Source: Thalassobaculum sp. OXR-137 | GTDB lineage: Bacteria; Pseudomonadota; Alphaproteobacteria; Thalassobaculales; Thalassobaculaceae | Assembly (NCBI RefSeq): GCF_034377285.1 | Contig: NZ_CP139715.1 | Location: forward strand, 558,001 to 622,000 | Direction of reading: 5' to 3' | DNA: 64,000 nucleotides | Shown: positions 22,501 through 34,257 of the stretch, one piece after another | Numbering within the stretch: position 1 is the first letter of the stretch | Layout of the letters: each line of letters starts with the position of its first letter | The notes under the pieces: model-generated | What the model was told of the DNA's origin: nothing | What the model saw: the letters and a program-made list of their open reading frames with translations, nothing else | Databases searched by the model: none | Program-made: the position numbers and the translations under genes

Positions 22501-22613
22501 GCACTCCCCGGATTTATTCCGGGGTAACCCGTCCGCTCGCTCCGCCGTCTCCAATTTTGGCGGGTACTTGGAAGCGGCCGCACCGATCGCCCCGGAATAA
22601 ATCCGGGGAGTGC
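22501..22613. repeat. 24 bp perfect inverted repeat between converging gene ends
   Basis: Arms at 22501-22524 and 22590-22613 are perfectly complementary over 24 bp; each arm is itself a small hairpin (CCCCGGATTTATTCCGGGG). The element fills the 190 bp gap between the esterase and DAHP synthase stop codons. It resembles the other intergenic palindromes of this window in design but not in sequence. It could terminate transcription from both sides. Confidence 0.85.
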
Positions 22614-22667: not shown

Positions 22668-23810
22668 TCACCCCCGCCGCCGCGCTTCGACCGCATCCGC
22701 CAGCCGGTCGAGCACGCCGAGGCTGGTCTGCCAGTCGATGCAGCCGTCGGTGATGCTGCGGCCATAGACCAGCGGCTCGCCCGGAATCTGGTCCTGACGA
22801 CCCGCCTCCAGGAAGCTCTCCACCATCACGCCCGTGATCCGGTGCTCGCCGGCGGCGATCTGCGATGCGACCGCGTCGATCACCTTGGGCTGGTTTTCCG
22901 GCTTCTTGGCGCTGTTGGCGTGGCTGGCATCGATCATCACCTGCGGACGCACGCCCGCCTTCTCGGCCTGGGCGCAGACCGCGTCCACGCTCGCCGCGTC
23001 GAAGTTCGTGCCCGACCGCCCGCCGCGCAGGATGACGTGGCAGTCCGGATTGCCCGCCGTCTCGGCGATGGCCGCCCGTCCCTCCTTGGTCACCGCCAGA
23101 AAGTGGTGCGGCTGGGAGGCCGCCTGGACCGCGTCCAGGGCGACGGTCACGCTGCCGTCGGTCCCGTTCTTGAACCCGACGGGGCAGGACAGGCCGGAGG
23201 CGAGCTCGCGGTGGATCTGGCTCTCCGTCGTGCGCGCGCCGATGGCGCCCCAGGAGACGAGGTCGGCGAAGTATTGCGGCGTGGTGGTGTCCAGGAACTC
23301 GCAACCCGCCGGCAGGCCCATCTCGTTGATCCGCTGCAGCAGGTCGCGGGCGCGGCGCAGGCCGGTCTCGATGGCGAAGCTGCCGTCCAGATGCGGATCG
23401 TTGATCATCCCCTTCCAGCCGACCGTGGTGCGCGGCTTCTCGAAATAGACCCGCATCACGATCTCCAGCGTGTCGCGGTGACGCCGGCGCTGCACCGCGA
23501 GCCGGGCGGCGTAGTCGAGCGCCGCCTTGGGGTCGTGCACGGAGCAGGGCCCGATCACCACCACCAGCCGGTCGTCGCGGCCGTGCAGGATGTCGGCGAT
23601 CGCGGCGCGGGCGGTCTGCACCCGGCGGATGATCTCGGGCTCGCGCGGGTTCTCGGCGATCACCGCTTCCGGCGCGCTGAGCGGGGTGATCGATGCGATC
23701 CGCAGATCGTCGGACCGGCTCAGCGGATCGAGGGCAAGCGGATCGGCATCGGGCACGTCGGAGACACGGGGGTCGGTTTTCGTCTCGGTCTTTATGGGTG
23801 CGATGTTCAC
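22668..23810 (-). CDS. aroG: 3-deoxy-7-phosphoheptulonate synthase (DAHP synthase, class I)
   Basis: Condenses phosphoenolpyruvate with erythrose 4-phosphate, the first step of the shikimate pathway. At 380 residues it is an AroF/G/H-type (class I alpha) enzyme. Signatures are VVIGPCSVHDPKAALDYA (about 84-101), the KPRTTVGWKGMINDPHLDGS PEP/E4P site, VGFKNGTDG, ILRGG and the metal-binding DASHAN. The start is a GTG (23810) with AGGAGGA upstream. The gene stands alone on its strand, downstream of an aromatic-rich leader peptide and terminator, so its expression is probably set by attenuation. Which aromatic acid inhibits the enzyme cannot be read. Confidence 0.93.
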   Translation of the reverse strand: MNIAPIKTETKTDPRVSDVPDADPLALDPLSRSDDLRIASITPLSAPEAVIAENPREPEIIRRVQTARAAIADILHGRDDRLVVVIGPCSVHDPKAALDYAARLAVQRRRHRDTLEIVMRVYFEKPRTTVGWKGMINDPHLDGSFAIETGLRRARDLLQRINEMGLPAGCEFLDTTTPQYFADLVSWGAIGARTTESQIHRELASGLSCPVGFKNGTDGSVTVALDAVQAASQPHHFLAVTKEGRAAIAETAGNPDCHVILRGGRSGTNFDAASVDAVCAQAEKAGVRPQVMIDASHANSAKKPENQPKVIDAVASQIAAGEHRITGVMVESFLEAGRQDQIPGEPLVYGRSITDGCIDWQTSLGVLDRLADAVEARRRG

Positions 23811-23846
23811 GGTGAAGTCCTCCTGTGGAGGCCCGCCGACGACATC

Positions 23847-23877
23847 AAAAAAGCCGCCGGGAGAGGGCCGGCGGCTT
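23847..23877 (-). terminator. attenuator terminator before DAHP synthase
   Basis: On the minus strand a 10 bp perfect stem (AAGCCGCCGG with CCGGCGGCTT, arms 23868-23877 and 23851-23860) with a 7-base loop is followed by a run of T (23852 down to 23847): a canonical intrinsic terminator. It lies between the leader peptide stop and the DAHP synthase start, 36 bp before the GTG, so it can only act to stop transcription before the gene. Confidence 0.9.
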
Positions 23878-23905
23878 GTGGGATGATTGCTGCGCTTGGT
23901 CTGTT

Positions 23906-23986
23906 CTAGGTCGCGCGCACCCCTGCCTCCGCCGGCTGCGGATAGCTGCTAAAATAAAACCAGAAGCCGGCGAATGCGTGGGTCAT
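23906..23986 (-). CDS. aromatic leader peptide for attenuation
   Basis: A 26-codon open frame whose middle reads FAGFWFYFSSY (residues 5-15): four Phe, one Trp and two Tyr among 26 residues, five of them consecutive. It starts at ATG 23986 and stops at TAG 23906, 28 bp before the terminator stem. No Shine-Dalgarno sequence precedes the ATG, but a promoter-like -10 ends only 7 bases before it, so the transcript may begin at the AUG. The peptide is expected to be a sensor of charged Phe, Trp and Tyr tRNA and not to act as a protein. Confidence 0.85.
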   Translation of the reverse strand: MTHAFAGFWFYFSSYPQPAEAGVRAT

Positions 23987-23993
23987 GGCGCGG

Positions 23994-24022
23994 AGCGTAG
24001 TCCCGCGATTTCTCCCTGTCAC
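23994..24022 (-). promoter_or_regulatory. promoter candidate for leader peptide and DAHP synthase
   Basis: On the minus strand GTGACA (24022-24017) and TACGCT (23999-23994) are separated by 17 bases. The -10 ends 7 bases before the leader ATG, which would place the transcription start at or one base before the A of the AUG. Match to consensus is moderate; the geometry and the absence of a ribosome site make it attractive. Confidence 0.5.
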
Positions 24023-27637: not shown

Positions 27638-27713
<76 letters not shown>

Positions 27714-34110: not shown

Positions 34111-34168
34111 GCCGCCTCCCGTTGTCCGGGGCCGCACGGAAAGCATTTCAGATTTTCAAAAGGAATTT

Positions 34169-34257
34169 GGCGGAGGGAGCGGGATTCGAACCCGCGAGAG
34201 ACTTTCGCCCCTACACACTTTCCAGGCGTGCGCCTTCAACCACTCGGCCACCCCTCC
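34169..34257 (-). tRNA. tRNA-Ser (anticodon GGA)
   Basis: Class II tRNA of 89 bases with encoded CCA. The acceptor GGAGGGG pairs with TCCCTCC, the anticodon loop CTGGAAA contains GGA for the UCC/UCU codons, and a long variable arm follows, as expected for serine. The T loop is in CGGGTTCGAATCCCG. It lies 58 bp behind the BKACE gene and points toward it. No integrase or repeated 3' tRNA end was seen nearby. Confidence 0.96.

Follow-up and report, generated by a model that had tools for sequence, protein, structure and literature searches.

What controls the stand-alone gene for a type I (AroFGH) DAHP synthase (DAHPS) in Thalassobaculum sp. OXR-137, and which aromatic amino acids does that control read? 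In E. coli, as set out in the excerpted text of PMC11802643, type I DAHPS genes are under TyrR/TrpR control by aromatic end products; these are DNA-binding repressors, whereas the locus described here carries the parts of an RNA attenuator. Here, analysing a 64,000-nucleotide stretch of contig NZ_CP139715.1 (the window), we provide in silico support for such a device in the form of an upstream open reading frame (uORF), phase conservation, a control-codon zone, covariation of terminator and antiterminator, and linkage to DAHPS. We propose, with a probability of roughly 0.93, that a ribosome-mediated transcription attenuator with a mixed aromatic control zone controls the gene. For many non-enteric Proteobacteria, the leader points to a regulatory rule governing one entry enzyme of the aromatic pathway, the textbook case being enteric TyrR/TrpR. 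It also offers a natural test of whether one attenuator reads several amino acids, with a rare-TTT bias and a predicted leaderless start as specific experimental handles, and its removal would be an obvious route to pathway deregulation in metabolic engineering.

Architecture of the DAHP synthase leader

The DAHPS gene (380 residues, GTG start, 22668–23810, minus strand) matches TIGR00034 in a profile search at 517 bits against a cut-off of 173.2 (E 1.7e-155), and PF00793 also matches. Its Shine–Dalgarno sequence, AGGAGG (23819–23824, minus strand), is read upstream of the GTG at 23810. The gene stands alone, with an aldo-keto reductase gene as its divergent neighbour and a GDSL lipase gene as its convergent neighbour.

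Upstream on the same strand lies a uORF of 26 codons, MTHAFAGFWFYFSSYPQPAEAGVRAT and a stop codon (23906–23986), conserved in relatives. The peptide has four Phe, one Trp and two Tyr residues, and the putative control codons, F-W-F-Y-F, are codons 8–12 (23951–23965, minus strand). Of 670 small ORFs counted on the two strands of the window (8–45 amino acids, one per stop codon), no other has five or more F/W/Y per eight codons; seven have four or more. Four arms, all on the minus strand, define the predicted competing structures. Arm 1 (TTCGCCGGCT, 23965–23974) would be the partner of arm 2 in the absence of a stalled ribosome; arm 2 (AGCCGGCGGA, 23928–23937) is common to this 1:2 hairpin and to the 2:3 antiterminator; arm 3 (AAGCCGCCGG, 23868–23877) forms the 5′ strand of the terminator stem; and arm 4 (CCGGCGGCTT, 23860–23851) forms its 3′ strand and is followed by a T run ending at 23847 (together 23847–23860). 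The terminator as a whole (23877–23847, minus strand) comprises a 10-bp GC-rich stem, a 7-nt loop and the T run, while the 8-bp antiterminator rests on the perfect complementarity of GCCGGCGG (23936–23929) and CCGCCGGC (23874–23867). The original prediction had listed an aromatic-rich 26-codon frame of this composition, a 10-bp terminator stem with T run before the DAHPS start and an 8-bp perfect antiterminator pairing, and all three are found at the locus.

The free leader folds into the 1:2 hairpin and the 3:4 terminator (z −2.11 relative to shuffled sequences, with 4 of 200 shuffles equally good). In a stretch of 801 nt, a simple terminator scan returns two sites where 0.3 would be expected; the second site lies inside the uORF.

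Control codons and reading frame of the leader peptide

For comparison we used 86 loci, the best matches to the window DAHPS (80 named and 6 relatives, many of them closely related), in 59 of which a simple script finds the leader. At −30, −27, −24 and −21 nt from the GGCGG of arm 2, an aromatic codon is present in 52, 55, 57 and 58 of the 59 leaders, respectively (88–98%), and the count drops to 0 of 59 at −9 and −6; the anchor is other than an exact GGCGG in five of the 59, and eight off-phase leaders were binned down to a codon. Phe occurs in all 59 peptides, Tyr in 58 and Trp in 46; 45 contain all three and 13 lack Trp.

The distance from the uORF ATG to arm 2 ranges from 44 to 71 nt, yet it is 2 mod 3 in 51 of the 59 leaders. 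From arm 2 to arm 3 there is no preferred phase (21, 20 and 18 leaders in the three classes). Phase is kept between the ATG and arm 2 but not between arms 2 and 3, as expected of a translated frame. Codon choice is also distinctive: TTT accounts for 35 of 51 Phe codons in 23 alphaproteobacterial leaders but for 9 of 136 in the DAHPS sequence at these loci. This bias may reflect a rare codon that sharpens stalling or an AU-rich stretch that keeps the region unpaired. Phase conservation and codon bias together fit translation of the uORF.

Predicted competing RNA structures

Covariation was assessed in a 38-leader alignment, with 500 shuffles and slid versions as controls. The 3:4 terminator is 96% paired, and in four of its pairs both sides have changed (26 cells), a count that 1 of the 500 shuffles reaches; its covariation score of 0.201 lies above all 500 shuffles (0.098 shuffled, at most 0.110 slid). 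The 2:3 antiterminator is 83% paired, and its four doubly changed pairs (19 cells) are a count that 94 of the 500 shuffles also reach. Its covariation score is 0.139 against 0.079 shuffled (0 of 500 reaching it) and at most 0.068 slid, a comparison to be read with the caveat that relatedness alone can lift sequences above shuffles without structure. A single arm-3 column, in which A or G predominates, covaries both with arm 4 and with arm 2, in each of which the partner is mostly U or C.

The original prediction had proposed that GCCGGC, which forms codons 6–7 of the uORF (GCC GGC), can sequester the leader segment. A strong 1:2 hairpin is predicted for the window and for five leader-bearing family relatives folded or read (L002, L004, L005 and L006 among them), but across the 38-leader set this hairpin is without covariation support, being 67% paired with a doubly-changed-pair count that 375 of 500 shuffles reach. 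In L005 the arm 1 core GCCGGC is changed to GCCAGC, and arms 2, 3 and 4 are altered to match.

In the free RNA of the window, the arm-2 core pairs upstream with a probability of 0.84. When the free RNA is folded up to arm 3 in each of the 59 loci, arm 2 favours upstream pairing in 28 and 2:3 pairing already in 27; the terminating state in many species may therefore rest on a translating ribosome. For the window, masking arm 1 raises the predicted probability of 2:3 pairing from 0.14 to 1.00; across the 59 loci, the mean rises from 0.48 to 0.90 (above 0.5 in 54), given a masking edge assumed to lie 15 nt ahead of the A-site codon, with a stall at −21 stopping just before arm 2.

These comparisons support the attenuation reading as originally proposed. 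Alphaproteobacteria, Burkholderiales and Xanthomonadales share the uORF, its control codons, the terminator and the antiterminator, the latter two with covariation, and conservation of the aromatic codons and stems in relatives, named beforehand as the check on that reading, is what was found.

Predicted promoter and a probably leaderless start

Two promoter elements are predicted close to the uORF: a −35 hexamer, TGACAG (24016–24021, minus strand), of which TGAC[AT] is conserved in relatives, and a putative −10 hexamer, TACGCT (23994–23999, minus strand), 7 nt 5′ of the ATG. Among 23 alphaproteobacterial loci with readable upstream sequence, TGAC[AT] occurs 34–37 nt 5′ of the uORF ATG in 20 and a −10-like hexamer at −12/−13 in 16. 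An AGGA, GGAG or GAGG motif stands at the usual place in 1 of 58 readable leaders, all lineages considered. Because promoter elements lie this close to the ATG and a Shine–Dalgarno motif is nearly absent, the transcript is predicted to begin at the AUG; the uORF is probably leaderless, with the A of the ATG or an adjacent base as the predicted first nucleotide. In most leaders of Oxalobacteraceae and Burkholderia the −10-like elements lie 31–45 nt upstream, and these leaders hence need not be leaderless.

A promoter-like site returned by an automatic scan (24087–24058) was set aside, as the conserved pair is the TGACA and −10 beside the ATG. Just 5′ of the predicted promoter there is a perfect 7-bp inverted repeat, TGTCGCC-TT-GGCGACA (24045–24030, minus strand); it was considered as an operator and dropped, no such palindrome being seen at the same place in the relative L002.

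Linkage of the leader to type I DAHP synthase

In 61 genomes searched around the window's own, the enzyme is present in six, all of the same genus or family, and the leader in all six. A covariance model of the leader, R1, finds it in 63 of the 86 loci; since 38 of those 63 leaders built the model, the independent finds are 25 of 48. R1-positive loci include Bradyrhizobium, Mesorhizobium, Devosia, Methylosinus and Leisingera and extend to Burkholderiales and Xanthomonadales (Xanthomonas, Dyella, Massilia and Burkholderia); plasmid 1 of Paracoccus denitrificans PD1222 carries the leader MSHRMPCTISFYWFRCPQRSRV, at 42.8 bits. Loci of genomes of the window's class are 86–92% identical over 2.6–4.1 kb to Bradyrhizobium and Mesorhizobium loci, and it is on this basis that the class sampled below is taken as Alphaproteobacteria. 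Among the 23 loci without an R1 match, L059 has just 52 nt of upstream sequence; of the four enterobacterial loci (L067, L075, L076 and L079), none has a leader match. On a tree built by a quick method, 8 changes suffice for the leader label, compared with 21.4 in shuffles, with 62 rows labelled leader-bearing and L055 entered as lacking, although R1 later found a leader about 450 nt upstream in L055.

Larger draws of genomes tie leader and gene together in the window's class. Type I DAHPS matches occur in 14 of 385 class genomes, each of which also has a full-length R1 match scoring 40 bits or more; in 13 the leader lies directly upstream of DAHPS, and in G221 leader and gene are at two contig ends. 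One further class genome, G237, exceeds 40 bits (41.1), at a plain terminator after another gene. Any R1 match at E 0.01 or better is found in 97 of the 385 genomes, and among the matches listed most of those below 40 bits are partial ones that cover the terminator end. A search of 398 phylum genomes gives R1 matches at E 1e-5 or better in 57 (R1 E-values are rough), and 49 of these sit 19–136 nt before a DAHPS match, the distance being hand-derived and taken to that match, not to the start codon. Within this draw, which has two genomes in common with the 385-genome class draw, the same 23 genomes of the window's class carry gene and leader (23 of 23). Judged from sequence, the leader arrangement is the rule for type I DAHPS in the genomes of this class that were examined. 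A point against a general requirement comes from the phylum as a whole: 175 of 224 genomes with a type I DAHPS match (E 1e-60), many with two or three gene copies, have no adjacent leader match, and so the enzyme does not need the leader.

Relation to known leaders

A known Rfam leader or riboswitch was considered and rejected, as no Rfam family matches at the locus. Rfam 15 returns nothing at the window leader at the gathering cut-off or at E up to 1. Searched at E up to 0.1, RF01859 (Phe_leader) matches none of 12 DAHPS-leader loci, while all three pheA/pheS controls are matched; RF00513 (Trp_leader) has no match at the locus, its two matches in the whole genome, both below cut-off, being elsewhere. 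RNA annotation will consequently tend to miss the DAHPS leader.

The Phe attenuators recorded in RF01859, those before pheA and pheS (presumably the leaders named pheL and pheM), follow the same logic as the DAHPS leader, but precede genes for chorismate mutase/prephenate dehydratase or Phe-tRNA ligase. Eight phylum matches of R1 are not beside a listed DAHPS: two are pheA leaders, five are pheS leaders with one 14-letter peptide, and one is a plain terminator, the downstream gene having been checked for three of the seven Phe leaders. R1 was built from DAHPS leaders only, yet finds Phe attenuators among its weaker matches, which supports the functional reading. The sequence TTTTACTTTAGC is common to many DAHPS leaders and to pheS leaders (L194 and L196–L199), and TA[CT]TTTAGC is found in 24 of 59 DAHPS upstream stretches; the sharing of TTTTACTTTAGC could reflect either common ancestry or a shared stalling constraint. 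In L193 (genome G762), a pheL-like leader (118–249) precedes an open frame with an N-terminal chorismate mutase/prephenate dehydratase match, and the C-terminal residues 401–555 of this frame (cut by the stretch) match a different DAHP synthase family, which would place a Phe attenuator over an apparent PheA–DAHPS fusion.

The closest described case is actinobacterial. Corynebacterium glutamicum aroR–aroF, in the excerpts of PMC11802643 and PMC4046766, has a leader peptide with Phe-Tyr-Phe before a DAHPS gene, and a stalled ribosome raises transcription; neither excerpt mentions Trp. Likened by these descriptions, both systems place a short peptide before DAHPS; the leader described here differs in being proteobacterial and in its mixed F/Y/W content. 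For Shewanella oneidensis, the portion of PMC2659441 available gives predicted RNA motifs upstream of aroF and aroH, tabulated as 'Attenuator sensing tyr-tRNA' with citation of E. coli work, and shows neither a sequence nor a leader peptide; these too, by description, are proteobacterial DAHPS genes with a predicted cis-regulatory RNA. Besides C. glutamicum aroF, that excerpted paper is the one proteobacterial DAHPS lead found in the literature searched. Given the Corynebacterium and Shewanella cases, neither the mechanism nor its target gene is without precedent. Within the literature searched (most subscription journals lie outside it), the apparent novelty is a proteobacterial leader family with a mixed F/Y/W control zone that is closely linked to type I DAHPS. 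DAHPS leader predictions of this type may already be present in Panina 2001, Merino and Yanofsky 2005 and Lopatovskaya 2010. The original prediction had also called a mixed sensor peptide on a stand-alone DAHPS unusual, a description that does not survive: every type I DAHPS genome of the window's class examined has the leader, and the excerpt of PMC11802643 reports the C. glutamicum aroF leader.

Proposed mechanism and its signal

We propose that RNA polymerase would begin transcription at the uORF ATG or right beside it and that a ribosome would load on the resulting leaderless AUG, start site and translation both being predicted. When charged tRNA-Phe, tRNA-Tyr or tRNA-Trp is short, the ribosome would stall on codons 8–12, covering arm 1 and freeing arm 2; arms 2 and 3 would then pair, no terminator would form and the synthase would be made. 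With all of these tRNAs charged, the ribosome would move on, and either the 1:2 hairpin would form or the ribosome would itself cover arm 2, so that 3:4 would terminate transcription with release of a leader RNA about 140 nt long.

Which tRNAs count is the less settled part. Codon content suggests that several aromatic tRNAs would be sensed at once. In its fullest form, this would be a pan-aromatic OR gate, in which a leaderless peptide with a fixed zone of at least four mixed Phe/Tyr/Trp codons lets a shortage of any of the three tRNAs open the first step, as a module that travels with DAHPS across Alphaproteobacteria, Burkholderiales and Xanthomonadales, shares ancestry with pheM/pheL and has its response sharpened by rare TTT; we hold this composite tentatively, at somewhat worse than even odds. 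An attenuator with a narrower signal, for which only Phe charging (or Phe and Tyr) matters and the Trp and some of the Tyr codons are passengers, falls only a little short of an even chance. It fits the ranking of residues among the peptides (Phe in 59 of 59, Tyr in 58, Trp in 46), the lack of Trp from the six codons up to −21 in 27 of 59 loci, and the last control position, which is Phe in 43 of 59, with 36 of those TTT; R1, moreover, also picks up pheL and pheM leaders. Both Phe and Tyr codons are present in C. glutamicum aroR, yet the response reported in the excerpted PMC11802643 is to Phe and not to Tyr, a hint that more than codon content decides what is sensed. Weighing the other way, 32 of 59 loci have Trp, a rare residue, among those six codons, 19 of 59 have it at −27, and all three products draw on the DAHPS step.

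A reading in which the released leader RNA or peptide acts mainly in trans, like S. meliloti rnTrpL/peTrpL, with cis attenuation secondary, is improbable. The S. meliloti trpL–trpE(G) attenuator, also alphaproteobacterial, has an RNA whose first bases, according to the excerpt of PMC7298713, are the leader ORF's ATG, as predicted for the DAHPS leader, although it has Trp codons and controls trpE(G). A predicted small RNA beginning with AUG resembles rnTrpL as that excerpt describes it, and peptide endings of the form GxR[SA]x are alike in Alphaproteobacteria and Xanthomonadales; the conserved stretch, however, overlaps or follows arm 2, so that arm-2 RNA pairing can explain much of it, and full-length matches scoring 40 bits or more adjoin DAHPS or Phe genes in nearly all cases. 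An ordinary intrinsic terminator between two genes with a chance small ORF is rejected as highly improbable: GC-rich terminators of such shape are common, and some model match (E 0.01 or better) turns up in 97 of 385 class genomes, those below 40 bits among the matches listed being mostly partial and over the terminator end, but full-length matches track the DAHPS gene, and the position, phase and codon bias of the control codons and the 2:3 covariation contradict it. The cis-acting attenuator remains our preferred reading.

Second DAHP synthase and flanking elements

The claim that the first shikimate step is controlled here would cover the type I enzyme but not the step as a whole: the genome has a second DAHPS, of type II (G000 C1:4689185–4690501), and a scan of about 600 nt upstream of it finds no small ORF with at least three aromatic residues per ten codons. 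The covariance model run on the organism's own genome gives one full-length match, at 105 bits, other full-length matches scoring at most 16 bits among the 150 of 4176 first-look candidates that were scored. As no such leader was found before the type II gene, the attenuator would govern one isozyme only, and the presence of a second DAHPS limits its likely physiological effect.

On the 3′ side of the DAHPS gene, a palindromic repeat, GCACTCCCCGGATTTATTCCGGGG, occurs as an inverted pair about 90 nt apart (22501–22524, plus strand; 22590–22613, minus strand). With at most one mismatch it is found at 97 places in the genome (52 forward and 45 reverse), against none for the reversed control, and looks like a REP/BIME- or MITE-like dispersed element. 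Elsewhere the window contains genes for tRNA-Ala (CGC) at 27638–27713 (plus strand) and tRNA-Ser (GGA) at 34168–34257 (minus strand).
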